Source: a virus. From it: a DNA stretch of 24,563 nt. Shown one piece after another: positions 4,396-20,868 of this stretch. Positions within the stretch are counted from its first letter, which is position 1, and each line of letters starts with the position of its first letter. The position numbers were made by a program, and so were the translations under genes. Below the pieces are notes generated by a model. That model did no database searches. It was not told the origin of the DNA and was given only the letters and a program-made list of their open reading frames with translations. The stretch spans positions 1 to 24,563 of IMG/VR virus record IMGVR_UViG_3300006026_000093. The stretch is one strand, 5' to 3'.

Positions 4396-4410
4396 GAAAT
4401 TGACAGGCTG
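4396..4410 (-). promoter_or_regulatory. 15-bp late element, copy 1
   Basis: Minus-strand CAGCCTGTCAATTTC, exact, ends 16 bp before the fibre-protein ATG at 4379. It is one of five exact copies, all on the coding strand and just upstream of late genes. Probably a late promoter or activator site; the mechanism is inferred. Confidence 0.65.
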
Positions 4411-4416
4411 CGCAGC

Positions 4417-5217
4417 TCAGCCGTTTTCCGTCGGCGGGTCTACCGGATACGGATCAATGGTGGAGATGGCCACCGGAAAAACCTCCCCGATCGATTCGTT
4501 CCGGGTAAATATCATCACCCGAAAAAACTCCGCAGCGGCGACTTGGTGGAAGCCCACATTGCCAAACAGATAAAGCGTATGAGTCTCGCCGCCGGCGAAC
4601 ATGGCGCCGCTCAAGACCTCCGCATAGTCCGAGTTGATCGCGACTCCTGACCCGTACGGACTGCCGCCGGCATACACCTTCAGCGGCGCGGCATTGGTGC
4701 TGTTGCCGGAGGTATACGGCGGCTGGTATTCCGTCGCGTTGATGGTCGCGCGCGTTGACCATGCCTGCCCTGTTACCCACTCGGGATGCCCATCATCATG
4801 CGGGCTGGCGATATACATCTCTATCGCGTCGATCGAGAAATTCAGCTCCGATTTTAGCTGCACCCGCCAAGCGTAATCTCCGGTGACATCCGGATCCCAA
4901 TTGCCGATTCCACCCACGAAATCCGGCACGATAAAAACCTCGCCGGGATCATTCCATTTCCGGATCCGCTGCCATGCGTATTCCTCCGGCACCTCTCCGG
5001 GGCGGTATGTCAGATCGAATTTGCCGACGTGGATAAAATCCTTGATGATCGAATCCAGCCCGGTCAGTCCGTCGTCACTGATCGAAGGATCGATCTCGAT
5101 CGTCCCGCCCGATTCCGTCAGCGATACCCTGACACCGGATGCGACACCGCGCAGATTCCAGAGCGCGTTCACGCGCTGGGCCAGTGCGTTCCATTCATCC
5201 GCGCGTCCCAGGTCCAT
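4417..5217 (-). CDS. Tail-tip/baseplate-associated protein, unknown
   Basis: A 266-residue protein starting at the ATG that overlaps the preceding stop as TGATG; an in-frame GTG lies one codon upstream. The N-terminus contains RVNALWNLRGVASGVRVSLT, nearly repeated in the next upstream gene product, and the DNA behind it is a 28-bp exact repeat. The rest has mixed beta character with many Gly and aromatic residues (GAMFAGGETHTLYLFGNVGF) and no recognised family. Its position between tape measure and fibre genes suggests a tail-tip component or a fibre adaptor. Confidence 0.7.
   Translation of the reverse strand: MDLGRADEWNALAQRVNALWNLRGVASGVRVSLTESGGTIEIDPSISDDGLTGLDSIIKDFIHVGKFDLTYRPGEVPEEYAWQRIRKWNDPGEVFIVPDFVGGIGNWDPDVTGDYAWRVQLKSELNFSIDAIEMYIASPHDDGHPEWVTGQAWSTRATINATEYQPPYTSGNSTNAAPLKVYAGGSPYGSGVAINSDYAEVLSGAMFAGGETHTLYLFGNVGFHQVAAAEFFRVMIFTRNESIGEVFPVAISTIDPYPVDPPTENG
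5142..5169. repeat. 28-bp direct repeat, copy 1
   Basis: Identical to 5273-5300. It encodes the VNALWNLRGV segment of the 266-residue tail gene and probably arose by local duplication. Confidence 0.8.
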
Positions 5218-5402
5218 CACGTTGCCGATTCGATCGTCACGTTTGACTCGGTTTTCAAGATCTTCACGTTTCCGACACCGCGCAGATTCCAGAGCGCGTT
5301 AACTTTGCGCTCCAGCAGATCCATCACCACCGGCTCAAACGCGGGTGCCGGCTGGCCTGGCTCCACCAGTGGCAGCGGCGTATCGATCGGCAGCTGATTC
5401 AT
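5217..5402 (-). CDS. Small tail-region protein with VNALWNLRG motif
   Basis: A 61-residue protein starting at 5402, where ATGA overlaps the stop of the preceding gene. After a Pro-rich N-terminus (PLPLVEPGQPAPAFEP) it carries KVNALWNLRGVGNVKILKTE and ends in TIESA. The same motif opens the next gene product, so this may be a duplicated trimerisation or attachment module. Function unknown; it belongs to the tail-tip operon. Confidence 0.65.
   Translation of the reverse strand: MNQLPIDTPLPLVEPGQPAPAFEPVVMDLLERKVNALWNLRGVGNVKILKTESNVTIESAT
5273..5300. repeat. 28-bp direct repeat, copy 2
   Basis: Identical to 5142-5169, in the same reading frame relative to the encoded VNALWNLRGV motif. Confidence 0.8.
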
Positions 5403-6280
5403 ACCGCCGGCCCGCTCCTCACCGCGCGCTCGATGATGTTCCACCCGTTCCAGCGTCGGAGCGTACTGCCCTCCACGACGATCCTGGTAGAGTTGCCGAT
5501 TTGCGCAAGATACTCTGCAATGGTCGGGTCGGTCGTCTCGGACAGCGCGTTGGTAAATCCACCATCGACACTCACCGCCTCAAACGCCTCGATGCGCGGG
5601 ATGTCGGCCGGCGTCGAAATTCCCGGACTCACCCCCGGCAGGAAGTAGTCATACTCAACCTCGCTTGGGATGCTCACAGTCGTGGCTGATCGGCTCGGGC
5701 TGACCTCCTGCGCGGTCAACCATCCCGTGATCGCTCCGCCCGTCAATATGCGTTTCACCCCCACGACATTGCCGGCGATGCTCTGGATTGTCCGGCGGAC
5801 GGTCTGCGTGACGGTGCCGACGTTGTAGATATATTCGTTGTAGCGGATCAAGAGGAAATCATCCACCGCCATCCCGACCACGGAATCCAGGGTGAGCATG
5901 TGACGAGAGTTGGAGATGCTCGCCGAATTGATATCCACCTTAACGCCGGGAGGATTTTCGGAGTTGAACGCCGGCCGATACCAACTGTAACCGATCGACA
6001 TCCGGCGCGGCTCTGGAATCCGTGAGTAGGTGCGGGAAAATTCCACCACCCCGCCCTGCTGCACCGGCTGCAATCCCGACTCCTCCACCAGGTAATAGCC
6101 CGACTCTTCCGGGTGTGCGCTATCGAGCACACCGGGCTCATAATCGCTGGCGAGCTGGTAATATTTTTGCCGGAAAATAAACTTTTGCGACACGTCCGGG
6201 AATGGCCGCAACCATTGGCGCGCACCCGTCTCGGTGGGAGTTCGTAGTCCGTCGGAGGAGTCGATGAATGGCAGTGACAT
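5399..6280 (-). CDS. Tail structural protein, unknown (distal tail region)
   Basis: A 293-residue protein located directly after the tape measure, where siphoviruses usually encode distal-tail and tip proteins. The sequence is beta-rich with many aromatic residues (FIFRQKYYQLASDYEPG, MSIGYSWYRPAFNSE) and has no motif I can assign. AAGGA about 9 bp before the ATG at 6280 is a good ribosome-binding site. It is translationally coupled to the following 61-residue gene by ATGA. Confidence 0.7.
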   Translation of the reverse strand: MSLPFIDSSDGLRTPTETGARQWLRPFPDVSQKFIFRQKYYQLASDYEPGVLDSAHPEESGYYLVEESGLQPVQQGGVVEFSRTYSRIPEPRRMSIGYSWYRPAFNSENPPGVKVDINSASISNSRHMLTLDSVVGMAVDDFLLIRYNEYIYNVGTVTQTVRRTIQSIAGNVVGVKRILTGGAITGWLTAQEVSPSRSATTVSIPSEVEYDYFLPGVSPGISTPADIPRIEAFEAVSVDGGFTNALSETTDPTIAEYLAQIGNSTRIVVEGSTLRRWNGWNIIERAVRSGPAV

Positions 6281-6308
6281 CAGTAGGATTCCTTTTCGTG
6301 GTTGAGGC

Positions 6309-7859
6309 TCATTGCGCGATCACCTTTTTCAAAACGATTCCCTCTCCGGCCGCCTTTTCGTTGAGCGCCGCAATCTGCTCCTTCATTCCTTTGATCCCCT
6401 CCTCCATATTCGCGAACGGCCGCTCCGTGCTTTTGAGATTCGAAATCGTTTTCCGGATCGCGTCCGCCTGTCCAAACAACTCCTGGCTGCGCCCCACGTT
6501 GCCAAAATCAAACCGAGCCGATTCCGCCTGCCGTTGCAACTCCATCACTTGGCGGGCCTTCGCCGCATCCGCCAACACATCCTTGGACCCAAATCCGCCC
6601 TGCCGATAATTGGCCAACTCATCGAGGGTAAACATACTGCGGTCGCCCTTCGTCTGACGCAGCCCACGCTGCTGCGCTGTCAATTGCTGCTGCAACTGTA
6701 TAGACCGCTCCTGCAACTGCGCCTGCCTCGCCTTCTGGTCGGCGATCGCCTTCTCCTTTTCATTCTGCTTGTCGAGCAGTCGGAGCTTGATGTTGGATAA
6801 GCGCAAATCGCCTTTGATCTCGGAATCAGCCTTGCCTTTTATCATCTCCAGCAGGTCTGCCTCTTCATCCTTGAGCCTCGCGATACGCTGCGTGGATGTC
6901 TCCAAAGCGGCCGCGCGTTCCTGCTCGGCTTTGACAATCTTCGCAAGGATGGGGCCGAGTTTTTCCGACTCGCGAACCTGTTGCTGGATCGCCGCGCGCA
7001 CCTCATCGTTGCGCCCTGCGTCAGCCACGGCATCAAATGCCGCGTCCATGTTTTCCGCGATCTGGCCGGACATTTGGAGTGCCTTGATGGGATTCATCCA
7101 TGCTTCGGCCAGATCGGCCAATCCTATGCCATTGGATAGCGCACCGACGAAGGCACCCAATTGCTTGAGCCCGAGCAACGCCTTGCCAACCTTATCCGTC
7201 ACCATTGATAGCGCGCCGCCGAGATGGCGATTCAATGTGTCCGTCAACTCGACAATGGCGTCATTCGCGCTCGTGCTGATCACGTCCCCGCTCTCGATCG
7301 CGAGGCGCTTCAATTCCGCCAATCCATCCGCACCATCGCCGAGAGTCTGGATCAAGCCCACGCCGGATCGGCCGAGCAATTCAAACGCGATCGCGGAGGC
7401 GTTCGCACCGCCGCCCGCAGCCTGGATCTTGTTGGCTATCTGATCGAGCACCTGAGTCGTTGACAGCAGTTCGCCTCGTGCATCGCGGATCGCAATGCCG
7501 TAATCTTTGAATTTCAGGATCGCTTCAGCATCTCCCGCGTTCGCTTTGCCGAGATTCACGGAGAGCTTCACGAGCGCCTTGTTCATCTCCTCCACGGAGG
7601 ATCCGTTCTGGCTTGCCGCAAATCCCAGAGATTGGACCTCCTCCACCGTGAGCCCGACAGCTTCCCCCGTTCTTTTCAGCTCCGCCGCAGCATCGGCGGC
7701 AGATTTCGCCAACGCCACAAAACCCAGAACGCCCAATCCCATACCCAGCGAATTCAGCCCCTGTTGGAACTGCATCGCCGCCGCCTTGGACTTCGTAAGC
7801 CCGGACTGAAACGGCCGCGCGTCCAGCCCCATCCGCACAAGTATTGATTCGCTGGCCAT
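6309..7859 (-). CDS. Tail tape measure protein
   Basis: A 516-residue protein that sets tail length and is ejected with the DNA. The N-terminus (SILVRMGLDARPFQSGLTKS) is the usual start of phage tape-measure proteins. A small-residue hydrophobic stretch follows at about 38-60 (GLGVLGFVALAKSAADAAAE), then Ala-rich helices and a long charged coiled coil at about 300-410. It is short for the family, so the tail should also be short (roughly 75-80 nm by the usual 1.5 angstrom per residue rule). Its ATG overlaps the preceding stop by one base, linking it to the assembly protein. Confidence 0.88.
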   Translation of the reverse strand: MASESILVRMGLDARPFQSGLTKSKAAAMQFQQGLNSLGMGLGVLGFVALAKSAADAAAELKRTGEAVGLTVEEVQSLGFAASQNGSSVEEMNKALVKLSVNLGKANAGDAEAILKFKDYGIAIRDARGELLSTTQVLDQIANKIQAAGGGANASAIAFELLGRSGVGLIQTLGDGADGLAELKRLAIESGDVISTSANDAIVELTDTLNRHLGGALSMVTDKVGKALLGLKQLGAFVGALSNGIGLADLAEAWMNPIKALQMSGQIAENMDAAFDAVADAGRNDEVRAAIQQQVRESEKLGPILAKIVKAEQERAAALETSTQRIARLKDEEADLLEMIKGKADSEIKGDLRLSNIKLRLLDKQNEKEKAIADQKARQAQLQERSIQLQQQLTAQQRGLRQTKGDRSMFTLDELANYRQGGFGSKDVLADAAKARQVMELQRQAESARFDFGNVGRSQELFGQADAIRKTISNLKSTERPFANMEEGIKGMKEQIAALNEKAAGEGIVLKKVIAQ

Positions 7860-8590
7860 CAGTTAAGGATCAGTGGGAGTGGTGGGAGTGGTGGAAAATA
7901 GAGTTCGCGGAATCTCTGCTGCTCGGCGCGGGCTTGACGTTGCACATCCTCGAAAATCTCCATGCGCTGTCGCTCACTGGGATTGCTGCCGACGCTTTCA
8001 GGATCGCTCGCCTTGTCGATCAGACGGAGGTATTGCCACAGCCGCGCCAATGGCAGGTCGTGGATGATTGCCCGCTCCGCCCAGTGGTAGTGGGACGCGA
8101 TATTGTGGACCACATAGGCCAGGTGGGACGCGAATGATTGACCGGCCACCGCCTCGCCAGATTGCGCATCAGCAAACGCCGCGCGCAGATGTTCGATCGT
8201 GAGCAATGACGCCTCTCTCAACTGCGCGCGATCCGTGAAGGTATCGTCCAGCCGGCGAATGAAATTTTCGCGGTGCCACTGTATGGGGCGCGCGGATTGT
8301 GGACAGTTGCGAAACTCGGACGACATCACCCAAATGGCCTGCGCCAATGCCTCCGGATGGATGGCCAGATATCCTTGCAGCAGCTCGGCCGTCTGCTCGT
8401 TGTGGGCATCGCTCGCCATCAGCAGCGGCGAGCGGATCGCATCCAGCATCGCCCACTGATGGAGTGTAAATGGGACAATATCGACGCCGGCGATTTCTAA
8501 TGGCGCGTCTAAAAATGCGTCCTCGCGGCGCTCACGCTCCGCGTTGAGGATCGGGATGAACCGGCGCTGAAATTCCGCTGCAAGATCCAC
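7859..8590 (-). CDS. Putative tail assembly protein (chaperone position)
   Basis: A 243-residue, helix-rich, acidic protein immediately before the tape measure, the place of tail-assembly chaperones. The N-terminal part has FTLHQWAMLDAIRSPLLM, resembling the start of many phage chaperone proteins. The likely start is GTG at 8590; no ATG fits the frame better. I see no convincing slippery sequence for the frameshift that classical G/GT proteins use. It ends with a Pro/Leu-rich tail. Assignment rests on position and composition. Confidence 0.65.
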   Translation of the reverse strand: MDLAAEFQRRFIPILNAERERREDAFLDAPLEIAGVDIVPFTLHQWAMLDAIRSPLLMASDAHNEQTAELLQGYLAIHPEALAQAIWVMSSEFRNCPQSARPIQWHRENFIRRLDDTFTDRAQLREASLLTIEHLRAAFADAQSGEAVAGQSFASHLAYVVHNIASHYHWAERAIIHDLPLARLWQYLRLIDKASDPESVGSNPSERQRMEIFEDVQRQARAEQQRFRELYFPPLPPLPLILN

Positions 8591-8591
8591 A

Positions 8592-8744
8592 TCATTGATC
8601 CGTCAAATCGAGTGACAACAAACGGGTCTGGCCGTCCGGGCATTTGGCCCACGCCTTACCCTTGGGCGCTTCCCTGTCCGCCATGATGCAGACCTCTCCG
8701 TAGGTCGCATGTCGCACCGTGTCAGATTTGGGTTTGGCCGCCAT
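8592..8744 (-). CDS. Small 50-residue hypothetical protein
   Basis: The frame runs from ATG at 8744 to TGA at 8592-8594 (MAAKPKSDTVRHATYGEVCI to DLTDQ). It begins 2 bp after the stop of the tube-like gene and ends beside the start of the next gene, filling the gap with tight operon spacing. Two Cys residues are widely spaced. No family recognised; probably a small tail-operon protein. Confidence 0.6.
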   Translation of the reverse strand: MAAKPKSDTVRHATYGEVCIMADREAPKGKAWAKCPDGQTRLLSLDLTDQ

Positions 8745-8746
8745 GA

Positions 8747-9091
8747 TCAGTTGTATTTTTTGACGAGCGTCACACTGTATTTGTGCTGCTCGGCCAACTT
8801 CTTGGGCTTGTTGACGGATGTCACGATCCAGGTCTCGCCTTCGTAGGAGGAGGTCTCGGCACCTTTGGCCAGCGTGGTTGACTCCGTGCTGGGCTTTTGC
8901 AGGGTTGCCGTCGCCGTCTTGAGTCCGGACGTGCCAAATGATCCCGTGGCGTTACCATCCTGATCAAGGATGGGCACCGTATTCGAGGGCTCGTCCGGGG
9001 TAAATTCCTCTACGAGATAAGAGTCTCCCGTGATGGTGATTGCCCCTATCCCTACCCCGAGGGATCCAGTGTCGTCGTGATTCAGTGCCAT
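8747..9091 (-). CDS. Putative tail tube-like structural protein
   Basis: A 114-residue beta-rich protein (ITITGDSYLVEEFT, GLKTATATLQKPSTES, WIVTSVNKPKKLAEQHKYSV) with the small, Thr-rich character of tail-tube or stopper proteins. It lies between the tail-completion gene and the assembly protein, the normal tube position, and has its own copy of the 15-bp late element upstream, which fits an abundant virion protein. The leader between that element and the ATG is 35 nt, longer than for the other four copies. Confidence 0.55.
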   Translation of the reverse strand: MALNHDDTGSLGVGIGAITITGDSYLVEEFTPDEPSNTVPILDQDGNATGSFGTSGLKTATATLQKPSTESTTLAKGAETSSYEGETWIVTSVNKPKKLAEQHKYSVTLVKKYN

Positions 9092-9126
9092 GATCTAAAC
9101 GCGGTTCGTCGCGCATAAATCAGCGG

Positions 9127-9141
9127 GAAATTGACAGGCTG
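9127..9141 (-). promoter_or_regulatory. 15-bp late element, copy 2
   Basis: Exact minus-strand CAGCCTGTCAATTTC, 35 bp before the ATG at 9091. It lies in a 123-bp intergenic gap that otherwise holds only an inverted repeat. Confidence 0.65.
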
Positions 9142-9151
9142 GGGGGGAGGC

Positions 9152-9216
9152 GAGAGGAGGACTGGACGCATTCAATCCGCGCCGGGAAATAACTCACTCC
9201 CCGCTCAACTCCTCTC
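9152..9216 (-). terminator. Weak hairpin between tail genes
   Basis: GAGAGGAG (9152-9159) and CTCCTCTC (9209-9216) can form an 8-bp stem with a long loop, starting at the stop codon of the tail-completion gene. There is a C-run rather than a T-run on the coding strand after it, so intrinsic termination is doubtful. Confidence 0.3.
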
Positions 9217-9718
9217 ACGGCCACGCCGAGTCCTGGATGCAGTAGATCAGCGACCAGTTGATATCCGTATCGTCAAAGCCCTCATCCTCGCTGATCGGGT
9301 ATTCGGTGGACTCCTCGTAGATGCCCCGGATGCTGTGGTATGAGAGCTGCGCATTGATGCCGGCCGTTGACTTAAGGCAGTCATACAGAGAGGCGCGAAG
9401 TTTTTTACGGATCAGCCGGTGATCGTCATCGGCGGCATCCGCCTGGCGATTCGTGCGGATCGTCGCGATCAATCTCCCCTCGAAAAATCTGTCCTTGCTG
9501 AAATTGCCGTCCGTCGTGAACAGCTTCTGGGCGTTTTCGAATCCTTGCGCTGCGCCGCCATGCTCCACGCGGAGCAGGACAGCCGGAGCCGACTGCACGT
9601 CAATACTGCGTGCAATCTGCGGCGTGGCTCCTATATCCTCCGTTGTCAGATAGGTTTGGAATGCCGCTACGAGAGTGTCCTCGAAATCGTAGAGAGTCGG
9701 TAAGTCAGGGGCGGGCAT
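9215..9718 (-). CDS. Tail completion/terminator-like protein
   Basis: A 167-residue protein with the look of phage tail-terminator or neck proteins: an N-terminal helix in LYDFEDTLVAAFQTYL, a strand with VQSAPAVLLRVEHGG, a central FEGRLIATIRTNRQ and the segment DDDHRLIRKKLRASLYDCL, then a C-terminal strand ending in Trp-Pro. It overlaps the DUF1353 gene by 14 bp and precedes the tube-like gene. No catalytic motif is visible; the family call is by pattern and position. Confidence 0.55.
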   Translation of the reverse strand: MPAPDLPTLYDFEDTLVAAFQTYLTTEDIGATPQIARSIDVQSAPAVLLRVEHGGAAQGFENAQKLFTTDGNFSKDRFFEGRLIATIRTNRQADAADDDHRLIRKKLRASLYDCLKSTAGINAQLSYHSIRGIYEESTEYPISEDEGFDDTDINWSLIYCIQDSAWP

Positions 9719-10109
9719 GGGGCGGTTTAATGGTGGGTGATTTTCGAAATGATCCGCCGAATATCCTTACGGCCAGATACATCATGCGGCGCTGAATCCA
9801 CGGCACGCCGTCCGCCCGCATCGCTTCGCGAAACAGGCGATCGGCATAGGCGCGCGGAATGTCCGATTGCGCATATGCCCAGTCGTGCAGGATCGCCGCT
9901 TTTTTGACCCGGCCATGCGGCGGGAACAATGGCCAAAGAAAGCGCGGGACGCTGGCGAAGTCGCTCCTGAATCCGCGCGGAACAATGAGCCACTTCGCGA
10001 TGGGCTGATGGTGCCAATAACAAAACGTGAGCGGCTGCGTGAGTTGCACCCGGAACCCGTCCAGCGTCCGAACGTACAACTCTCCCATGAATTTACCACG
10101 GCAGCTCAT
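9705..10109 (-). CDS. DUF1353 phage protein
   Basis: A 134-residue protein matching the DUF1353 pattern: LIVPRGFRSDFASVPRFLWP, LFPPHGRVKKAAILHDWAYA and the following acidic and basic helix with ADRLFREAMRADG. The Asp, His and Trp of these motifs are present. The family is common in tailed phages and usually lies near lysis or tail genes; its biochemical role is not settled. The start at 10109 is supported by an ATGA overlap with the stop of the membrane-protein gene, and an internal ATG (MGELYV) is an alternative. Confidence 0.85.
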   Translation of the reverse strand: MSCRGKFMGELYVRTLDGFRVQLTQPLTFCYWHHQPIAKWLIVPRGFRSDFASVPRFLWPLFPPHGRVKKAAILHDWAYAQSDIPRAYADRLFREAMRADGVPWIQRRMMYLAVRIFGGSFRKSPTIKPPHARP

Positions 10110-10546
10110 CGCTTTGCGGTGACGTGACCAAACAGGAAGCCGGTGACGCTCATCAGCACGGAGTAATTAAGTGGAGTGATCATGATCGGGTTGCGCCCCG
10201 AGCCGACGGTGAAGCTGTGCAGCTCATCCTGTGAGATCTGCCAGGGGAAGAATCCGGCGGATTGCTCGTAGTAGAAAAACGTCACCGTGACATCCATGAA
10301 CGCCGGCGCGACGATTGTGAATACATGCACGGAAATGAACGCGGCCACCACCATCCAGCGCATCAGGCTTACCCATGGATTTGAGTCCACCTTGCGCGCC
10401 TTGTCCCACATCGCCGCCCGCTTTTCCTCGGCCACGATGCGCAGCTCGTCCATCGTGCGTTGATGCTCCTGCTGGTTGGCCTTGAGAGTCATAAACGCCC
10501 CGAGCGCAGCCGTGCCAGCGAGATTTGCCAGTTCGAATCCTACCAT
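10106..10546 (-). CDS. Membrane protein, possible holin
   Basis: A 146-residue protein with a weakly hydrophobic N-terminal segment (about 5-22), a charged helical stretch with QQEHQRTMDELRIVAEEKRA, a strong membrane segment at about 61-84 (WMVVAAFISVHVFTIVAPAF) and another near the C-terminus (125-142). The topology resembles three-segment phage holins. The adjacent lipoprotein and DUF1353 genes support a lysis module, but no endolysin motif is visible nearby, so the holin call is tentative. Confidence 0.5.
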   Translation of the reverse strand: MVGFELANLAGTAALGAFMTLKANQQEHQRTMDELRIVAEEKRAAMWDKARKVDSNPWVSLMRWMVVAAFISVHVFTIVAPAFMDVTVTFFYYEQSAGFFPWQISQDELHSFTVGSGRNPIMITPLNYSVLMSVTGFLFGHVTAKR

Positions 10547-10722
10547 GATCGCAGCGAGAGGTGAGCGGAACTCGACGGAGTTTCGTTACGTGGTTTGATC
10601 CAGATATGGCGCTTACCCTGGTGGACCTTCGGGGCCAGCGTCTTGCTCTCCGTGGCCACCACGTGATTCGTCCGGCACCCGCAAAGGAGCAACCCGGAGA
10701 TCATCGCGGTGAAATACTTCAT
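10540..10722 (-). CDS. Small lipoprotein, spanin-like candidate
   Basis: A 60-residue protein with a lipoprotein signal MKYFTAMISGLLLCGC; the lipobox is LCGC with Cys16 as the likely lipidated residue. The mature part is about 44 residues and basic. It overlaps the membrane-protein gene by 7 bp. A tiny outer-membrane lipoprotein next to a holin-like gene suggests an o-spanin-type lysis protein in a Gram-negative host. Copy 3 of the 15-bp late element is 12 bp upstream of the ATG. Confidence 0.6.
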   Translation of the reverse strand: MKYFTAMISGLLLCGCRTNHVVATESKTLAPKVHQGKRHIWIKPRNETPSSSAHLSLRSW

Positions 10723-10734
10723 AAAAATATTCCC

Positions 10735-10749
10735 GAAATTGACAGGCTG
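10735..10749 (-). promoter_or_regulatory. 15-bp late element, copy 3
   Basis: Exact minus-strand CAGCCTGTCAATTTC, 12 bp before the lipoprotein ATG. The short AT-rich stretch GGGAATATTTTT between element and ATG could hold a -10-like sequence, which would imply an almost leaderless transcript. Confidence 0.65.
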
Positions 10750-10797
10750 GGAGATGGGATATGGCGCATCACTGATTGCGGTCGGTCCTGCGCGAGC

Positions 10798-10841
10798 ATC
10801 ACCTTGTCACCTTGTCCCCTTGTCACCTTCCCCTTGCCCCA
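10798..10841. repeat. Short tandem repeat of CACCTTGTC-type units
   Basis: About four degenerate units of ACCTTGTC or CCCTTG in tandem. They overlap the last codons of the gp10-like gene, whose C-terminal Gly-Ala-Arg-Gly-Arg and stop are encoded by them. Comparable short purine/pyrimidine repeats occur in intergenic DNA of some bacteria. Confidence 0.6.
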
Positions 10842-11605
10842 TGCTTAATCAAATATTTCACCCGGCGCGCCATGGTCTTCGTGCGGACGCTCACGGCCCC
10901 GTTTACCGCATTGGCCAGCACGCCGATACCTTTGGTGCTGTTCCTCATTTGGATTTCGATACCGTGCCGCCGGAGGATCACGCTGCCGGAACCTTTGGCG
11001 TAGCCCGCGTGGCGGCTGATCATCTTTGGCGCGGCGCGCCAGCCTTTTGTTGAGCGGAGCGCGTTCCATGATTTCAGCCAGCCGGATTTCATGTATCCAA
11101 TCCTGGCCTGCATGGCCTTGTAATGGCGCTGCCACTGCTTGGTATCCATCGACACCAAACCCGTGGCTCGAGGCACCCGGCCCCGTCGATTGCGGGCGGA
11201 TCGGTGGGCGGCGGGAATGTTGCCAACGGCGGTATGCCCGAAGACCTTGCCGGCCGGGAGATCGAGGAATTTTTGCAGCAGCTTCAGGTCGTTTTTTTCG
11301 ATCGCGGCCTTTAGCATCGGGTGCTTGGGATCCAGGGAAATCGGCGTCACCGCTTTGCGCAGATCCGCCAGTATGGCGCGGCTTGCGATCCGCTTCACGG
11401 TCGCGTTTTTGAATCCGGGATTCGATGCCTTGAGCCCGGCGGCGGTGGCCTTGTTGACGGCAGGCGGTGTGAACTTGATCAGCTGCCGGCAAAACCGCAT
11501 CGCCTCCTCTTTGGCGATCTCATTCGCCGGCTTCCCGCTCAGTGCGGCGAGTCGCGCCAGTTGGCGGTTGAAGCCTCTCAGGTCTACCGTGGCGGGCGCA
11601 CTCAT
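10823..11605 (-). CDS. HK97 gp10-like / tail morphogenesis protein
   Basis: A 260-residue, very basic protein. The start (VDLRGFNRQLARLAALSGK) and the early CRQLIKFTPPAV segment resemble the phage virion-morphogenesis/gp10-like family of head-tail connectors, in which a short helix is followed by RTPVD/TG-type sequence; here the protein is longer, with an insertion at about 75-190. It lies between the head-to-tail genes and the lysis-like pair. Translation ends inside a tandem repeat. Confidence 0.55.
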   Translation of the reverse strand: MSAPATVDLRGFNRQLARLAALSGKPANEIAKEEAMRFCRQLIKFTPPAVNKATAAGLKASNPGFKNATVKRIASRAILADLRKAVTPISLDPKHPMLKAAIEKNDLKLLQKFLDLPAGKVFGHTAVGNIPAAHRSARNRRGRVPRATGLVSMDTKQWQRHYKAMQARIGYMKSGWLKSWNALRSTKGWRAAPKMISRHAGYAKGSGSVILRRHGIEIQMRNSTKGIGVLANAVNGAVSVRTKTMARRVKYLIKHGARGR

Positions 11606-11617
11606 GGCGGTGGCCGA

Positions 11618-12064: not shown

Positions 12065-12284
12065 ACTTCAGTTTTTCCAATTGCGCCTCTGCGTCCAATC
12101 GTTTGCGGTGTTCGATCTCCGCATTTTCCGCGTGCAGCTTCGCCAATTGCTGATACGCCTGGTTGACCTTTTCGAACCGATCCGAAGCGGTGGCAGCCAT
12201 CCTCCGGCGGTACAATCCCAGACCACCGAGCACAGCGCCCATTCCTCCCAGAAACGCTGATATCAATTGCGCCATGTCCCACAT
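12045..12284 (-). CDS. Small membrane-anchored coiled-coil protein
   Basis: A 79-residue protein with one N-terminal membrane segment (AQLISAFLGGMGAVLGGLGL) followed by basic residues (YRRR) and a charged helix (QAYQQLAKLHAENAEIEHRK). This layout resembles inner-membrane spanins or phage membrane adaptors, but a role in signalling with the overlapping receiver gene cannot be excluded. The start at 12284 (MWDMAQ) could alternatively be the second ATG three codons later. Confidence 0.6.
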   Translation of the reverse strand: MWDMAQLISAFLGGMGAVLGGLGLYRRRMAATASDRFEKVNQAYQQLAKLHAENAEIEHRKRLDAEAQLEKLKYENPDR

Positions 12285-12290
12285 TCAAAA

Positions 12291-12488
12291 TCACGCTTCC
12301 AAAGCTTTCACCCGATCTTCCAGTTCCTGGATCTTTTTTTCCTGCGCGTCGATCTTGTCGAGCTTGGCTTTCAGATCTGCCTGGAGCGCCCGCAACGCCT
12401 CACCGCAGCTTATCAGCTCATCGATTGAGAGCGTCACTTTTACGCGCGGATCATTCAGCAGCCGCCCCAATATCTCGTGTGCATTCAT
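12291..12488 (-). CDS. Small coiled-coil protein
   Basis: A 65-residue protein from ATG at 12488 (MNAHEILGRLLNDPRVK). Residues about 30-65 form a regular heptad helix with LKAKLDKIDAQEKKIQELED, so it is probably an oligomer. It lies 8 bp after the fibre-like gene and 6 bp before the membrane-anchored coiled-coil gene; the two may interact. No family recognised. Confidence 0.65.
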   Translation of the reverse strand: MNAHEILGRLLNDPRVKVTLSIDELISCGEALRALQADLKAKLDKIDAQEKKIQELEDRVKALEA

Positions 12489-12496
12489 AAAAAAAA

Positions 12497-13684
12497 TCAG
12501 CCGGCGGATACTTTGACAGTGCCGGAATCGCTCCACAGCCGGCCCGCTACCGCCGGATCCGAAGTGGGCAGACCATCAAATTTCACATTGCCGTCCACCT
12601 CAAATTCACCCGTCGATCGCAGATACATTTTGCCCGTGCCGCCGATCGAAAATCGCAAGTCCTGCCCGCTGGCACTGTTCAAAAACGTCGCGCCGGCAGA
12701 ATCCTGGAGAATGCCGTATTCGTTGGTTACGTTGTAATTGTCCTTGTGACAAAAGACCGCGTAATCTGCTGAGCCATTCCAGTTTCCGACAAACGCCTTG
12801 CCCACCCTGGCACCTTCTGCGACCAGATTAACCGCGATGTCGAGCTTGTGGGTGGGATCCACATTCATGCCGATATTGCCATCGATCCGGCAAATGCCGC
12901 CGGCCACATTTACAGCGTAGGCAGAGCCGCTGCCGCCGTTGGCGGGCGCAGTGATGTGCAGCGCGGTATTGGTGCCGCTGGTGTTGCCGGTGGGCCCCAG
13001 AATCTGCACGCCGTATTTGTTGGTCCCGGAAGTGCGAGCGTGGACCTGCACACCGTAGGATGTATTCACGGCGGCGTTGTCGCCCACGGTCCAATCCTCA
13101 ACCAGCAGACCAGTGGCGGACGTTACTGTGCGCAAGGTGCCGTCACCCATCACCGTGGGTTTGATCGTCGTGCCGTAGAGCGCGGACACATTCGCACTCA
13201 TCTGGAAAGATGGTTTGGAGCAGATGCCGCCATAATCCACCGCCGTGGACACGTCATAGTTGGATGAGTGATTCGTACCGATGCAGAGCAGATAATTCGT
13301 CAGCACGCCCGTCACATCACGGCCACAGATCCATGCCCGACTGCCAACATCCAGCCCCACCGATGCATCCGCAGCGGCTACCCCGATGCCGACAGATGCG
13401 GAAGACAACAGATCCCCGCTGAGCGTGCCGCCGGCCAAGGGCAGCCGGTCGTTGATCTTGGCCAGTGCCTCGTTCAGCGTATTTCCGTCCGCCACCGCCC
13501 CCGTCTCCGACCCTAGTCCCGAGATGGCGGAGGAAAACAAAATCCCTGTGACGACGTTTTGTTTTTCGATCAACGCCATCGAGCCGTCTGCGCCCTGCGT
13601 TGTGTCGGACCTGTCAATGGCGATGAGGTAGTCCGTATCGGCGAGCGAGGTAACAACGGTTTGATCCGTAATCTCTTCAGGCAT
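12497..13684 (-). CDS. Tail-fibre-like protein
   Basis: A 395-residue protein. After an N-terminal region with TSLADTDYLIAIDRSD it has LNEALAKINDRLPLAGGTLS, the head of many phage fibre shafts. A long Gly/Ala/Thr-rich beta region follows, and it ends with DGLPTSDPAVAGRLWSDSG, a C-terminus typical of phage fibre or appendage proteins. It is placed among head-to-tail genes rather than at the tail tip, so it may be a head or neck appendage. GGAACGGAAAAG before the ATG at 13684 is a good ribosome-binding region. Confidence 0.75.
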   Translation of the reverse strand: MPEEITDQTVVTSLADTDYLIAIDRSDTTQGADGSMALIEKQNVVTGILFSSAISGLGSETGAVADGNTLNEALAKINDRLPLAGGTLSGDLLSSASVGIGVAAADASVGLDVGSRAWICGRDVTGVLTNYLLCIGTNHSSNYDVSTAVDYGGICSKPSFQMSANVSALYGTTIKPTVMGDGTLRTVTSATGLLVEDWTVGDNAAVNTSYGVQVHARTSGTNKYGVQILGPTGNTSGTNTALHITAPANGGSGSAYAVNVAGGICRIDGNIGMNVDPTHKLDIAVNLVAEGARVGKAFVGNWNGSADYAVFCHKDNYNVTNEYGILQDSAGATFLNSASGQDLRFSIGGTGKMYLRSTGEFEVDGNVKFDGLPTSDPAVAGRLWSDSGTVKVSAG

Positions 13685-13724
13685 TCTTTTCCGTTCCTTC
13701 CGTGTCTTCCGTGGTTGAAAATTA

Positions 13725-14111
13725 CTATCCGATCAAAAGCGCCTTACCACCTGGCGTTAGTAGCTGCTCCCCATTCGGCAACAGCAAAAATGGCAGTGCC
13801 GCCTCATTCGCAAACTGGCCACGAATCAACCAGGCGCCCGCGCCCTGCTCGATCTCCGTCACGCGATATACGCGCGACTCCACCGTGAGCCGTTCGCGCT
13901 TCGCCGGTCGGGTGGTCGGCAGATTTGCCACCGGCACAAACAGCTCGATCTCCGAATCGATCAGATGCCCCACCTCCTGCATGTCCTGCTCGGTGGAAAT
14001 GCCGTAGCCCTTGCGGCCCGTGAATCCAAACCCGCGCTGGTCGGTGACCGTCACCGGAGATTCGGCGACGATCTCCGCGAAGGCGGCGGCGAGTTCAGTG
14101 GCGTCTGACAT
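13725..14111 (-). CDS. Putative head-tail joining protein
   Basis: A 128-residue protein in the connector position after capsid and small head genes. The sequence begins with an Ala/Glu helix and continues with strands including LIDSEIELFVPVAN and RVYRVTEIEQGAGAWLIRGQ, a pattern fitting small beta-barrel head-tail joining proteins of lambda FII type. No specific signature is visible. A hairpin with a T-rich tract lies directly upstream. Confidence 0.5.
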   Translation of the reverse strand: MSDATELAAAFAEIVAESPVTVTDQRGFGFTGRKGYGISTEQDMQEVGHLIDSEIELFVPVANLPTTRPAKRERLTVESRVYRVTEIEQGAGAWLIRGQFANEAALPFLLLPNGEQLLTPGGKALLIG

Positions 14112-14160
14112 AAAAATAAAACGGGTGCCGGCAGGAAATGCACCGACCCACCAGCACCCG
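14112..14160 (-). terminator. Possible intrinsic terminator or leader hairpin
   Basis: On the minus strand a 7-bp stem CGGGTGC/GCACCCG with a 25-nt loop is followed by TTTTATTTTT, directly before the ATG at 14111. It could attenuate transcription from the small Glu/Pro-rich gene into the connector genes. The large loop makes it weaker than the hairpin at 14402-14439. Confidence 0.4.
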
Positions 14161-14177
14161 CATGACCAATGGAGCGG

Positions 14178-14396
14178 TTAATCTTTTTTGGATCGCCCGC
14201 GCTTTTGCTTCGGCGCAACTTCGGCTTCAGGCTCGGCTGCAGGCTCGGCTTCAGGCTCGGCTTCAGGCTCGGGCTGAGCGATCGCTTTACCCATCGACAA
14301 AAGTTGATTGGCGGTATCCGGATCCACGTCGGCCGTGTCGCCGGCTTCCACGTGGGTGCCTTTCACAAAAGTACTGCGAGTGATTTTGATTCTCAT
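14178..14396 (-). CDS. Small head-region protein with EPEA repeats
   Basis: A 72-residue protein. Residues 1-40 (MRIKITRSTFVKGTHVEAGD, then DPDTANQLLSMGKA) match the short folded domain seen in many phage head genes beside the capsid. Residues 41-60 are a low-complexity EPEAEP-type repeat made by a 12-bp DNA repeat, and the end is highly basic (KQKRGRSKK). It may be a minor capsid or assembly factor. It lies between two hairpins, so it may be a separate short transcript. Confidence 0.65.
   Translation of the reverse strand: MRIKITRSTFVKGTHVEAGDTADVDPDTANQLLSMGKAIAQPEPEAEPEAEPAAEPEAEVAPKQKRGRSKKD
14220..14275. repeat. 12-bp tandem repeat (GGCTCGGCTTCA type)
   Basis: Four to five near-identical 12-bp units inside the small head gene encode alternating Glu/Pro/Ala. 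Copy number is likely to vary between relatives by slippage. Confidence 0.75.
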
Positions 14397-14401
14397 GATT
14401 C

Positions 14402-14439
14402 AAAAAGCGGCGGGTGGTTTTTACGCCACCCGCCTTTTG
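14402..14439. terminator. Strong, possibly bidirectional terminator
   Basis: A perfect 9-bp stem, GGCGGGTGG (14409-14417) with CCACCCGCC (14426-14434), and an 8-nt loop. There is an A-run before and a T-run after it on either strand. It lies between the capsid-associated gene and the small Glu/Pro-rich gene, so it would limit read-through after the highly expressed capsid genes. Confidence 0.8.
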
Positions 14440-14444
14440 ATTGA

Positions 14445-14822
14445 TCAGCTCACCCGCTTGCATCCGACCAGCGCGCAGGCGCAGTCGAAGGTGGGCGAGG
14501 TGCCAGTCACGGTTTTCACGGCGCGGACGTAGCGTTCTGCGCCATCCACATCGAGGCTGTAAGCCTGATCGGAATCAGCCGCATCAGTCACCTGGGTAAA
14601 GGTGGCCCCGCTGATATCCGTCCACGTGGAGTTGTCCGGCGAGTCCTGCAACTTCACGTCGAGCGTGGGCGAGGTGCCACCGCCAGCCGAGCTGAGCAGC
14701 AGGACCTTGGCCCGGCCCACGTAGTCCTGAATATCAACGCCAGTGCCGTTGCCGCTTGCCGTAACGCGCACACCGGGCAGCAGCTCGGCATGTGAGGTTT
14801 TGTCTCCGATATTATTGTCCAT
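14445..14822 (-). CDS. Capsid-associated small protein, possibly decoration
   Basis: A 125-residue beta-rich protein with LLPGVRVTASGNGTGVDIQD, TLDVKLQDSPDNSTWTDISG and YSLDVDGAERYVRAVKTVTG, the pattern of a common uncharacterised phage protein found next to major capsid genes. It lies 29 bp after the capsid start-side gene boundary and directly before a strong terminator, which suggests stoichiometric expression with the capsid. A decoration or head-stabilising role is inferred. Confidence 0.6.
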   Translation of the reverse strand: MDNNIGDKTSHAELLPGVRVTASGNGTGVDIQDYVGRAKVLLLSSAGGGTSPTLDVKLQDSPDNSTWTDISGATFTQVTDAADSDQAYSLDVDGAERYVRAVKTVTGTSPTFDCACALVGCKRVS

Positions 14823-14851
14823 GATTCGGTATTCCTTTCGGTTCAGGGTGA

Positions 14852-16216
14852 TCAGGCGGCGGCGGTATCGCTCGACACGCAGAAGCTCTGCGGGCGGCGG
14901 ACGATGTGGTCCTGATCCTGCATCATGATGATGCGGGCGACGTTCTGTTCCGCCTTGGTAACGAGGTCAATCGTCACGTCCAGGCCGGCCCATTCGAGGA
15001 TCACAGAGTCGGCCCAGTTGCCGAAGATTGCCTTGTTGCCGGGAACCTGCTTGGTGCAGGCAGCCCGGTAGCCGTTCACTTCGCCGTCCTGATTGGCATC
15101 GCCGCGCATCGTGGTCCACACGAAGTCGGAGCCGGCGGAGCTGGCCACCAGCTTCTGCTTGAGCTTGCCCTTCGCGGTCGGGGTGGTGACATAAGCCATT
15201 GCACCCATCAGCGCGTTGTCGTCGTCGATCGCGGTTTCCATGTCCACCATCTTGCCGAAGGTGGCCGCGCCCCCGAAGGTCACGGAGTTCACGCCGGTGG
15301 TGTTCATGATGCCCAATGGCTCATCGCCCGATCCGGATCCGTTCAGGCAGAAAAGATCCTGCTTGATGGCGAGTTGCTTGGTCATGTCATCCTCGAAAAA
15401 TCCAGCGGTAGCGAGTGCGCTCTGCGCAATCAGCCGCTTTGAATACTCCGTGTAGACACTCACCGAGTGCGGATTCGCATTGACCTGCTCGTAGGTGATG
15501 CTCGATTTGGTGGCAGCCTCAGTCTCGCCACGGGCGTTCGCCGTGCTGGCGGTCAACTGGCGCGGGATCGAGACGTTGCCAGTGAGCCCGCTCAACACGG
15601 TGGCACCCAAGCGGCGGACAACCGTGCGGTTGCGAAGCAGCTCGATGAAGTTGCCGACCAACAGATTGGTGGAAACGAGATTGCCGCCCACGTTCGCCGT
15701 GCCGGCGACCTGGGTTCGGGTGTTGAATGCGCCACGGTTCAGGAAATCCTGCGGGATGTAAAATCCCTGCGCACTGCGGCCTACTACCTTGGCCATCTGA
15801 TCACTGACTTCGCGTTCGAAGCCTTCGACCTTGCCACCACTGGCGAGCGATTGGATGGCGCGAGCAATGTTGTATTGCTTCACCTCATTATCGCTCATGC
15901 CGATCTCGGTGGATTCGAGGCGTTGGCTGTTGGTTTCCTTCAGTCGCTCAAAGGCGATCTTCTGGAACGCGGCGGCGGATTGCTCCGGATTGGCGATCGC
16001 GGTGCGGGCTTCGGTGGACAGATCCACCTGTTCCCGGACACCATCCGCGATGGCGAGGATTTCCGACACGCGGCCGGCTTCAGCCTGTCCCGCCTCACGG
16101 CGGATTTGCGCCTCGTCAACGGGCGGGGCCTGGCGATTGTCAATGACTTCGATTACCGGCGCAGGCGCACCACTTGCAGATGGGGCGGCAAGGCCATTCG
16201 GATTGTCTTCTGGCAT
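14852..16216 (-). CDS. Major capsid protein, HK97 fold
   Basis: A 454-residue protein that forms the icosahedral shell. About 1-120 is a charged helical scaffold-like delta region (RREAGQAEAGRVSEILAIAD) expected to be removed by the prohead protease. The rest matches the HK97 capsid family, with NLVSTNLLVGNFIELLRNRT, a region rich in AKSSITYEQV-type sequence and the segment FCLNGSGSGDEPLGIMNTTG, followed by the P-domain and A-domain strands. Its start overlaps the protease gene by 64 bp in another frame, so the two are likely translationally coupled. Confidence 0.92.
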   Translation of the reverse strand: MPEDNPNGLAAPSASGAPAPVIEVIDNRQAPPVDEAQIRREAGQAEAGRVSEILAIADGVREQVDLSTEARTAIANPEQSAAAFQKIAFERLKETNSQRLESTEIGMSDNEVKQYNIARAIQSLASGGKVEGFEREVSDQMAKVVGRSAQGFYIPQDFLNRGAFNTRTQVAGTANVGGNLVSTNLLVGNFIELLRNRTVVRRLGATVLSGLTGNVSIPRQLTASTANARGETEAATKSSITYEQVNANPHSVSVYTEYSKRLIAQSALATAGFFEDDMTKQLAIKQDLFCLNGSGSGDEPLGIMNTTGVNSVTFGGAATFGKMVDMETAIDDDNALMGAMAYVTTPTAKGKLKQKLVASSAGSDFVWTTMRGDANQDGEVNGYRAACTKQVPGNKAIFGNWADSVILEWAGLDVTIDLVTKAEQNVARIIMMQDQDHIVRRPQSFCVSSDTAAA

Positions 16217-16791
16217 ATTGCTTGATTGATTGAATTTGCTTTTTGTCGGGCCAAATCAATGGCGTTTTGGTTTTGCAGCGAGCGTCCAAAACCCACGGAT
16301 GCGTCCGCAGGAATTGCCACCGTGCTGCCTTCGTATGGCTCCCAATCAACAACGCGGACAAGTTCCACCCCGCCCTTTTGCTTCGTTGCTTTCACCTCGT
16401 GGATCCGATACCCGACGCTGACCAGAACGCGGATTTCATCCTCGATGTCTTGGAAAATCTCTTCCCCTCGGGGCGAGCGACTGAACTTCACTGTTACTCT
16501 CAGTCTTTTTGCTTTGACCTCTGATTGGACGATTCGGCCGACCTGATCATTGGTGTCGTGGTTGACCAACCACGCGGCACCGCCTTGGAATCGATCGAGC
16601 CGGATAGAGCTTGGACTGTGGTCCAATACTTCGATCCCGAAATAGCGTTCAACCTGCGTCTCGCTGGAGAGGCTGAATTCCGCCGTGCGGGACTCGCGAT
16701 CAATTACACCGCGCGACACCAGGGCGAACTCACGACGCAACGGCTCATCGCTACCACGGATCGCATTTATGATTTCCGCGTCTCGCGTCAT
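16153..16791 (-). CDS. HK97-family prohead protease
   Basis: A 212-residue serine protease that matures the procapsid. I chose the ATG at 16791 (MTRDAEIINAIRG) because the region just upstream is the 15-bp late element and not coding-like. Motifs include the His-containing AAWLVNHDTNDQVGRI (His78) and VLVSVGYRI with Ser125, corresponding to the conserved His and Ser of peptidase family S78. It lies between portal and capsid, the normal order, and its 3' end overlaps the capsid gene by 64 bp. Confidence 0.88.
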   Translation of the reverse strand: MTRDAEIINAIRGSDEPLRREFALVSRGVIDRESRTAEFSLSSETQVERYFGIEVLDHSPSSIRLDRFQGGAAWLVNHDTNDQVGRIVQSEVKAKRLRVTVKFSRSPRGEEIFQDIEDEIRVLVSVGYRIHEVKATKQKGGVELVRVVDWEPYEGSTVAIPADASVGFGRSLQNQNAIDLARQKANSINQAICQKTIRMALPPHLQVVRLRR

Positions 16792-16803
16792 CACAATTAT
16801 CCG

Positions 16804-16818
16804 GAAATTGACAGGCTG
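16804..16818 (-). promoter_or_regulatory. 15-bp late element, copy 4
   Basis: Exact minus-strand CAGCCTGTCAATTTC, 12 bp before the protease ATG, in the 55-bp gap after the portal gene. GGATAAT follows the element. This would allow capsid and protease to be expressed independently of the portal. Confidence 0.7.
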
Positions 16819-16846
16819 CACATAACCGCTCCGTTGATTCCGGGAA

Positions 16847-18445
16847 TCACTTGGGCTTGCCGCCTTTCGCCGGTCGGGCGTCATCATCCGCATCGGGATC
16901 AGGTGGCGGCGCGTCCGATATTTTCACGGGCGGCAGCCCGTGCTTCTCGTCCATGGCGACATCGGCGGCGATCTCGGCGGCCACTTCGGTGGCGTCCACG
17001 CCCTGCTTGGCAGCTTCGCGGCGGCGGCTGGTGAGCCGGAGCTGCATCAACTTCTCGATCGCATTGGCATCCTTCAGCGGATCCACCCAGCCCCAGCGGC
17101 GGCCGGTGAATTGGTAACGATTGAATTTCTTTAGGCGCGTGAAAGGGAGCGCGGAGCCGTTCGGCATTTTCACCATGGACGCCATCAGCGCCATGCGCAG
17201 CCACGCCTCAAAAATCGGGTTGGCCCATTCTTCGATAAACCACTCCTGATCGTTCATGTATTCTTCGCGATCCTCCAACACGCCCGCGCGGGCGCTCGAA
17301 AAGTTCACGCTCTCCAGATCGCTCGCGAGGCTGAAATAACTGATCCCGAGCGCGCCGGAAATGCGGCGCACAATCGCCTTGGTGAAATCGCCAAAGTTGC
17401 TGTGCGGATAGTTCGGATTATTGCTGACGGCTTTGACGCCCATCGGCAGCTCGCGCCATTCGCCGGGCTCCACCTCATACACACCGACGCCTTGCGCGTC
17501 CTCCGGCAGTTCCAACCCATCCGGCACTTGCTTCTCGAAAAAACCACCCTGGCAGGCCCCCGCCCGTGCGGCGATCAAGGCGGCCTCGTTGTAGCCGTCC
17601 AGCATTTTGGCGTCCAACATCGCCGCGTGATTGTCCGGCACGCCACGGCTTTGAGAAATCCGCTTGGGCGCAAACAGATGGATCACCCGATCCGCCGGCC
17701 AGCGGTCGCGGGACATCGTATCCGCCGCACTCATGTGCCAGCGGTCGCCGGGATGATGGCGAAAAAGGTGGTAGGCCACCACGCGGCCGAGCGAGTCGTA
17801 TTCGACCCCCATCCGCACATGGTTCCCGTTTTCCAGATTCCCGTTGTGATTGATGTCCAGGTGGTCGGCCTCCCGCAACTCGATCGCAAAGCCATACGGG
17901 TTATCCTTCGGCGCATGGATCAACCCGAAACACTCTCCATCCCGCTTGGCACTGCGCAAGGCGAGCTGGCACAAGCGCCGCCAGGTGAGCCGTCCAGAAA
18001 GCGAGGCGTACGACGCCTTTCCTTGGCCGGGCAGGTAGCGGGATTTTCCCCATTCTTTCCACGCCAGCTCGATCGCCTTGTTGGCCAGCTCATCCGGTTC
18101 GCCGGGAATCAAGGTGGCCTTGGGGCCGATGCGGTCCGGCTCTCGGACTTTGGCGTCCAGCTTCAGCCCCATGGAGCCGAGCACGTTGTTACGGCTGAGC
18201 CGCAGCCAGTTCAGGGTAAGCGGATCGTCGCGTTCCAGCGCCCGCGCGCTGTCTCGCAGAGTCTGGATCGCCTGCCGTGATTCCGCGTCCGCCGAAGTGG
18301 AGGACGTGAGAAAATCCGCCGTCAATCTATCCTTGCGCGCGGCTGCGTAGCGCAAGGCGAATTCGGACTGCGCGTTTGATCGGCGCGGCTGGGCCGCAGA
18401 TTTGGAGTAGCCAAAATAGCCGGCGATGCTGGAAAAAAGTCCCAT
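16847..18445 (-). CDS. Portal protein, lambda family
   Basis: A 532-residue protein that forms the dodecameric DNA-entry ring. It matches lambda-type portals: an N-terminal RRSNAQSEFALRYAAARKDR region, LERDDPLTLNWLRLSRNNVL near residue 90, central LAKRDGECFG-like sequence at about 170, FAPKRISQSRGVPD, and the C-terminal wing and crown segment with SVNFSSARAGVLEDREEYM and FTGRRWGWVDPLKDANA. The last 60 residues are Ala-, Asp- and Pro-rich. It begins 3 bp after the stop of the head-completion gene. Confidence 0.93.
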   Translation of the reverse strand: MGLFSSIAGYFGYSKSAAQPRRSNAQSEFALRYAAARKDRLTADFLTSSTSADAESRQAIQTLRDSARALERDDPLTLNWLRLSRNNVLGSMGLKLDAKVREPDRIGPKATLIPGEPDELANKAIELAWKEWGKSRYLPGQGKASYASLSGRLTWRRLCQLALRSAKRDGECFGLIHAPKDNPYGFAIELREADHLDINHNGNLENGNHVRMGVEYDSLGRVVAYHLFRHHPGDRWHMSAADTMSRDRWPADRVIHLFAPKRISQSRGVPDNHAAMLDAKMLDGYNEAALIAARAGACQGGFFEKQVPDGLELPEDAQGVGVYEVEPGEWRELPMGVKAVSNNPNYPHSNFGDFTKAIVRRISGALGISYFSLASDLESVNFSSARAGVLEDREEYMNDQEWFIEEWANPIFEAWLRMALMASMVKMPNGSALPFTRLKKFNRYQFTGRRWGWVDPLKDANAIEKLMQLRLTSRRREAAKQGVDATEVAAEIAADVAMDEKHGLPPVKISDAPPPDPDADDDARPAKGGKPK

Positions 18446-18448
18446 GGT

Positions 18449-19021
18449 TTAGCGGGTCTGCATGAAGTGAATACGATGAACGCCGCGCGGCGATTTCCCT
18501 TGCTGGATCCGTTCGGCGTCCTGCTCCTGGCGGTAAAAAACCTTGTATTTCTCAATCGCCGGGATGAGTTCGGACACCATGTTTTTCCGGGTGTAGGTCG
18601 TGCCCAGGATGCTCGTGCTGGTCATCGTGCCGGTGGCGAGCGATTCCATGGCGGCCTCCAGCAGATCGAGCGTTTTTTTGACGTGGCTCCGGTTGTCCAA
18701 CCCACCGCTGGCCGCAGCCAGATCGGGCAAAATCTTGATATCCCCCTTGTAGACCAGATGCCGCGCGCTGCCGTTGGTGGCGTATCCCTGGATCGCGTAG
18801 GTGCCGGCCACCCAAGCCGCCGAGGTCGCCGCCGCGACGGAAATCAGATGATCATCACCACTGGCCGAACTCGTGATCGAGATCAGCGCAGTCGCGCTCG
18901 TGAGGGCATAGGACAGCGCCCAGCCATCGCCGGCCGGGTAATCGCCATGAGAAATCTTCCAGGTAATGAGATCGCCGGCCGTGATCGTGTCCGGCTCGGA
19001 TGTGGGGACTTGATGCGCCAT
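18449..19021 (-). CDS. Head completion protein (gpW-like position)
   Basis: A 190-residue protein starting at the ATG at 19021 (MAHQVPTSEPDTITAG). About 10-100 is an Ig-like beta domain (TITAGDLITWKISHGDYPAG, then GSARHLVYKGDIKIL). The C-terminal part is helical (KKTLDLLEAAMESLATGT, then SELIPAIEKYKVFYRQEQDA) and resembles lambda gpW-type connectors encoded just before the portal. Copy 5 of the late element lies 16 bp before the start, with a small inverted repeat CCACAATTTTTGTGG between them. Confidence 0.7.
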   Translation of the reverse strand: MAHQVPTSEPDTITAGDLITWKISHGDYPAGDGWALSYALTSATALISITSSASGDDHLISVAAATSAAWVAGTYAIQGYATNGSARHLVYKGDIKILPDLAAASGGLDNRSHVKKTLDLLEAAMESLATGTMTSTSILGTTYTRKNMVSELIPAIEKYKVFYRQEQDAERIQQGKSPRGVHRIHFMQTR

Positions 19022-19037
19022 TTCCACAATTTTTGTG

Positions 19038-19052
19038 GAAATTGACAGGCTG
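19038..19052 (-). promoter_or_regulatory. 15-bp late element, copy 5
   Basis: Exact minus-strand CAGCCTGTCAATTTC, 16 bp before the head-completion ATG. It partly overlaps an inverted repeat CCACAATTTTTGTGG (19024-19038). It is the most upstream copy and so may mark the start of the late transcript. Confidence 0.7.
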
Positions 19053-20850: not shown

Positions 20851-20868
20851 TGTGGTAACACAATACCA

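Follow-up and report, generated by a model that had tools for sequence, protein, structure and literature searches.

An exact 15-bp element heads five late-gene blocks of an uncultured temperate phage and is a candidate core late promoter

The sequence analyzed here, a 24,563-nt window (the whole stretch of DNA under study) of IMG/VR record IMGVR_UViG_3300006026_000093 from an uncultured bacterial virus, covers part of the genome of a temperate tailed phage, with all morphogenesis genes on the minus strand. A tyrosine integrase gene (664-1824) adjoins a tRNA-Thr call, and the tRNA-Thr-like sequence itself (469-537; 69 nt, perhaps only the 3' part of a real tRNA) is likely the attachment site. 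About 27 kb of this incomplete genome is known, since a 22.5-kb sister contig (L114) extends the sequence by 2.66 kb on the upstream side and brings in a gene for a DnaC-like loader; no terminase was recognized among the proteins examined in this known part, and some of the replication region is absent from it as well. The nearest other phages and prophages are related almost exclusively through head proteins, with roughly 30-50% of residues shared, and searches for closer relatives through the capsid, tail, integrase, and DnaC proteins returned the same phage species or nothing.

Within the window, the 15-mer CAGCCTGTCAATTTC occurs in five exact minus-strand copies, that is, on the coding strand, and the start codon downstream of each is ATG. 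The element is asymmetric and not palindromic. Copy 1 (19038-19052) stands ahead of the first late gene, 16 nt from the ATG of a head-tail joining gene (18449-19021; phrog_5774, 2.8e-31), which together with a lambda-type portal gene (16847-18445; PF05136, 7.3e-83) forms late unit 1 (16847-19021). Copy 2 (16804-16818) lies within the 55-bp gap behind the portal gene, 12 nt from the ATG of an S78-like protease gene (16153-16791) that is followed in unit 2 (10823-16791) by an HK97 capsid gene (14852-16216) and then by head and unknown genes, with profile matches to PF05065 (1.5e-31) and phrog_617 (6.4e-44). Copy 3 (10735-10749), in a 100-bp gap, is 12 nt from the ATG of a small lipoprotein-like gene, the first of four overlapping genes in unit 3 (9215-10722), the others encoding a 146-aa protein, a DUF1353 protein (PF07087, 5.1e-29), and a 167-aa protein. 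Copy 4 (9127-9141) occupies a 123-bp gap, 35 nt from the ATG of a 114-aa tail-tube-like gene that opens unit 4 (4417-9091), in which a 243-aa gene, a tape measure gene (phrog_8462, 8.3e-21), and further tail genes follow; here, another ATG, out of frame and opening about 50 codons, is found 10 nt past the element, ahead of the ATG at 35 nt. Copy 5 (4396-4410), in a 37-bp gap, is 16 nt from the ATG of a large tail fiber gene (phrog_2282, 2.5e-06), which with a 235-aa gene makes up unit 5 (1810-4379). The gene labels of the preliminary description largely hold: those for the head-tail joining, protease-capsid, and fiber genes are backed by profile matches, and the lipoprotein and tube-like labels, which match no family, are readings of the sequence alone.

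Several features of these units lie apart from the element. The head-tail joining gene is preceded here by a VRR-NUC nuclease gene (19306-19680), whereas in the relatives Bas97 and CRP-811 it is preceded by the terminase. The protease and capsid occupy two overlapping frames (64-bp overlap, 16153-16216), in contrast to the single fused gene of relatives such as Bas97, and the capsid frame could be reached by a separate start or by frameshifting. A stand-alone response-regulator receiver domain (PF00072, 1e-10) is encoded at 11618-12064 within the late block, and a strong, terminator-like hairpin with GGCGGGTGG arms (14409-14434), readable on both strands, fills the gap between the genes at 14178-14396 and 14445-14822.

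The five exact copies previously described at 4396, 9127, 10735, 16804, and 19038 were recovered in full by exact and mismatch scans, and the measured distances to the ATG (16, 35, 12, 12, and 16 nt in that order) match the reported 12 or 16 bp in four cases and 35 bp in one. The window contains no further site with one to three mismatches on either strand; in dinucleotide shuffles, sites with at most three mismatches numbered 0.68 on average and 3 at maximum. The probability that five random positions all land 10 to 36 nt 5' of minus-strand gene starts is about 4e-9, and together with the shuffle counts this leads us to reject a chance origin. Taken modulo 3, the distances (from the copy at 4396 upward) are 1, 2, 0, 0, and 1, so that the copies stand in three reading frames relative to their genes; the constraint therefore acts on DNA or RNA rather than on protein, and a conserved peptide is rejected as the cause of the repeat. 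Near-identical IMG/VR contigs retain every copy that they cover (four in L114, two in L060, and two in L100) and represent the same phage, at 99.97-99.99% identity across long blocks, making an assembly error unlikely. We conclude that the 15-mer is a real, non-random control element.

The position of the copies follows the layout of the late genes. Of the 23 junctions at which one late gene follows another, 8 leave a gap of at least 37 bp and 15 are shorter or overlapping; copies occupy four of the former and none of the latter (Fisher's exact test, approximately 0.008 by arithmetic). This gap structure supports the earlier proposal that the element divides the late block into five units, each of them compact and headed by one copy. 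No convincing terminators were found ahead of the copies, and transcription may therefore run on from one block into the next.

Downstream of the element, an AT block with the consensus ATTTT recurs at a fixed offset, 6 nt past the 15-mer (positions +7 to +11): AATTG at 19027-19031 after copy 1, ATTGT at 16793-16797 after copy 2, ATTTT at 10724-10728 after copy 3, ATTTA at 9116-9120 after copy 4, and TTTTT at 4385-4389 after copy 5, all on the minus strand. When the five sequences were jittered at random, a window as conserved as this one arose in about 1% of trials, a figure to be read in light of there being only five sequences and of the block having been noticed post hoc. The arrangement suggests a bipartite signal consisting of the 15-mer, six free bases, and the AT block. 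Relative to this unit, the position of the ATG shifts by at least 4 nt, a freedom that would be expected of a unit recognized at the DNA level, which the start codon has only to follow. Upstream, no 7-mer is common to three or more copies within 120 bp 5' of the element, and no sigma-70-like promoter (TTGACA and TATAAT separated by 16 to 18 nt) precedes the copies, the sites detected scoring below the shuffle mean. A plus-strand promoter using the TTGACA contained in the element's reverse complement was also discarded, there being no minus-10 box at 16 to 18 bp.

These observations tip the balance modestly toward reading the 15-mer as a late promoter core specific to this phage. This reading is favored because the copies are exact, with no degenerate versions, and lie 12 to 35 nt ahead of an ATG on the coding strand, because they fall in four of the eight large gaps and in none of the 15 other junctions with an AT block at fixed offset, and because no sigma-70-like promoter, common fold, Shine-Dalgarno sequence, or 16S complementarity explains the element. 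In such a scheme, a phage-encoded or phage-modified specificity factor of RNA polymerase would read the 15-mer, and transcription would start no more than about 15 nt past it, just ahead of the start codon. The resulting late mRNAs would be leaderless or carry leaders of about 0 to 11 nt (20 to 30 nt at 9127) and would need no Shine-Dalgarno sequence, and the five promoters together would switch on the head, capsid, lysis-like, tail, and fiber blocks.

The two copies that lie 12 nt from the ATG could not have a standard minus-10 box at the AT block, and the geometry of a promoter would thus be non-canonical. One arrangement that fits all five copies places an extended minus-10-like box, TGTCAATTT, across -20 to -6 (with TG, A-11, and T-7 kept), which could be read as TG-n-CAATTT. 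The +1 position would then be A or T seven bases past the element (A in 4 of 5 copies), the first bases of the messages would be AUUUU-like, and the leaders would measure 6, 6, 10, 10, and 29 nt, the last at 9127. In P2 and Mu, activator sites lie around -40 or beyond; the distance to the ATG excludes such a role for the element, provided that translation does not begin elsewhere.

In kind, such a device is ordinary; in sequence, it is new. T4 late promoters consist of a single TATAAATA box without a -35 element, and those of T4 and T7 class III, like the present element, are exact repeats ahead of late genes. The sequence here is different, however: the T4 box is absent from the element and its flanks, and the known part of the genome yielded neither a gp55 or gp33 gene nor one for a T7-type polymerase. 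The scatter of one short conserved site over late genes recalls phage P1, in which 11 late promoters share a common activator site and are activated by Lpa (PMC10695390), but that site is a 9-bp inverted repeat, whereas the present element is not palindromic, has no common upstream k-mer, and is accompanied by no identified Lpa homologue in the ~27 kb. The proposed short late motif close to the transcription start without a -35 element resembles the late promoters of phiKZ, although the motif there is only TATG, lies at the transcription start, and is read by the multisubunit phage polymerase of jumbo phages (PMC4666361).

In appearance, the nearest known phenomenon is that of the start-associated sequences (SAS) of cluster K mycobacteriophages, which are 13 bp long, asymmetric, in one orientation, near start codons, and confined to one phage group, and whose function is not established (PMC3203893, PMC11373665); Adephagia carries 14 identical copies (PMC11373665). 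Like the SAS, the present element is short, asymmetric, and in one orientation, with multiple identical copies near start codons. The SAS consensus, GGGATAGGAGCCC, however, contains the Shine-Dalgarno core AGGAG, lies 3 to 9 bp from the start codon, and marks mainly non-structural genes (PMC3203893, PMC11373665), while our element lacks this core and precedes structural and lysis-like genes, at a distance of 12 to 35 bp, and the two sequences are unrelated. Because it departs from the SAS in core, spacing, and gene class, the element is not a member of that group, even if it should prove similar in action.

The likeness to SAS nevertheless frames the foremost alternative, in which late transcripts are longer and contain the 15-mer in their 5' leaders, where a protein or RNA of phage or host origin would use it to recruit or block the ribosome, in effect replacing the Shine-Dalgarno sequence. 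Placement near the start codon in one orientation and in identical copies, as in SAS, speaks for it, as does the setting of the five genes: in keeping with the earlier remark on the absence of clear Shine-Dalgarno sequences at some copies, anti-Shine-Dalgarno pairing upstream of them is weak or absent, and most are not translationally coupled to the preceding gene. Against it, the element contains no Shine-Dalgarno core; its pairing with the universal 16S region near Escherichia coli position 915 is matched by 52% of shuffled 15-mers; and a common RNA hairpin was rejected, as the five leader folds differ (z scores of -0.2 to -1.6). The distance to the ATG varies from 12 to 35 nt, and several uncoupled late genes, such as those starting at 8590, 14396, and 14111, have no element. 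An Rfam search gave no match. We regard an RNA-level element as a possible but doubtful explanation. The earlier choice between a leaderless promoter and an RNA-level element is thereby partly upheld, with the AT block, the placement at operon heads, and the lack of a shared fold favoring the DNA level. As an observation on copy 1 alone, a perfect 9-bp inverted repeat, TTTCCACAA-AAA-TTGTGGAAA (19021-19041), links the end of this copy to the head-tail joining ATG and is absent at the other copies.

A special case of the late-promoter reading, in which a T7-type single-subunit RNA polymerase would recognize the 15-mer and melt the DNA at AATTT or ATTTT, would likewise give very short leaders, and both the succession of a GC-rich recognition part and an AT-rich part and the exact repeats of T7 class III promoters at the heads of late blocks are in its favor. 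We consider it improbable, as the base after the element is C rather than G in 4 of 5 copies and the genome is that of a temperate phage with a lambda-type portal; PF00940 was also unmatched in the 22.5-kb sister contig and 15 other records, although this search had no positive-control match and says little. Slightly less credible still is a processing site at which a sequence-specific endoribonuclease would cleave one long late message, once at each copy. The motif is exact, there are no terminators between blocks, and each copy lies just 5' of the first gene of its block, but no structure is present, an exact requirement of 15 nt would be unusual, and we know of no candidate nuclease for the motif; the VRR-NUC gene noted above is present, but its family is known for DNA cleavage. 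Very unlikely is a reading in which the 15-mer has no role in regulation and is a border remnant of modular recombination between phages: the copies do lie at module borders, and a cassette array with site-specific exchange exists elsewhere in the same phage, but their flanks share nothing (see the upstream comparison above), they occur on one strand only in tight placement ahead of an ATG, and the relatives offer no example of a module that has the element or of one that lacks it.

Under the favored late-promoter reading, a trans-acting factor is expected to read the element, and the preliminary description had envisaged a dedicated activator or sigma factor. No polymerase, sigma factor, or activator gene was identified in the ~27 kb known of the incomplete genome. 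An early open reading frame upstream has a Myb/SANT-like C terminus (phrog_37969, 5.5e-9; its AlphaFold model is poor, with a pLDDT of 47), and we rejected it as the activator, as the near-identical L100 phage is without its cassette and retains the two copies covered.

The distribution of the element is narrow. The 15-mer was found in 102 viral DNA stretches and is repeated only in this phage; elsewhere it is single, mostly away from gene starts, and about as frequent as expected by chance, and a widespread motif is thus rejected. In two bacterial groups holding distant relatives, counts are at or near chance level, with a single copy in 2 of 388 genomes from the phylum of the Opitutae relative and in 4 of 195 genomes from the class of another relative (L129). 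No relative carrying the element emerged. De novo searches of about 165 loci with related portals revealed no convincing comparable repeats, those in L141 (Opitutae) and L242 being set aside as coding or resembling ribosome-binding sites, and the relatives were too variable for the portal-protease gap to be read as a derived insertion. As far as the searched collections show, the element appears private to an orphan lineage.

In its boldest form, which we consider less likely than not, the promoter reading would have a temperate phage run its whole morphogenesis from five identical 15-bp core promoters, with transcription starting on the start codon or only a few bases away from it, leaderless mRNAs, and an undescribed phage specificity factor. 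Were the 15-mer a promoter, its defined 15 bp could be used to find the late-transcription factor in a phage lineage that has no characterized member, and the five late messages, with leaders short or absent, would form a natural set in a weak Shine-Dalgarno setting. If it instead acts at the RNA level, it would constitute a second case of start-associated sequences, here without a built-in Shine-Dalgarno sequence.

The early region of the phage contains at least 13 small-gene cassettes (window positions 19818-24463, minus strand, and L114 positions 1058-2656), the gene bodies of which are bracketed by a B site (ctCCACTGnCTTGGTAGG) near the N terminus and an A site (CCTACCACCAAAGTGA) near the C terminus. 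The last 6 nt of B and the first 6 nt of A from the same gene form covarying inverted repeats (11 of 13 perfect, 76 of 78 positions; permutation p, 5e-5), and the A and B ends do not covary across cassette junctions (p, 0.82). One pair reads GTCTAAC...GTTAGAC, the integron core consensus, and most read GCCTACC...GGTAGGC; A and B lie 86 to 105 bp apart, with the cassette start codons inside the A-to-B unit. Judged by these repeats, the array follows the logic of integron cassettes and may be more unusual than the 15-mer element. Phages carrying integron cassettes are already known (PMC9892861). The L100 phage, which equals the window in the late region (0 mismatches over 3.7 kb), is without the methyltransferase cassette (21042-21725) and the Myb-like cassettes (19818-20325), both bounded by A sites, as established by comparing L100 positions 1189-1310 and 1906-1921 with these two intervals of the window. 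At the first L100 junction, the A site is a composite such as site-specific cassette excision would produce, one cassette having supplied the first base and the other cassette all the remaining ones.
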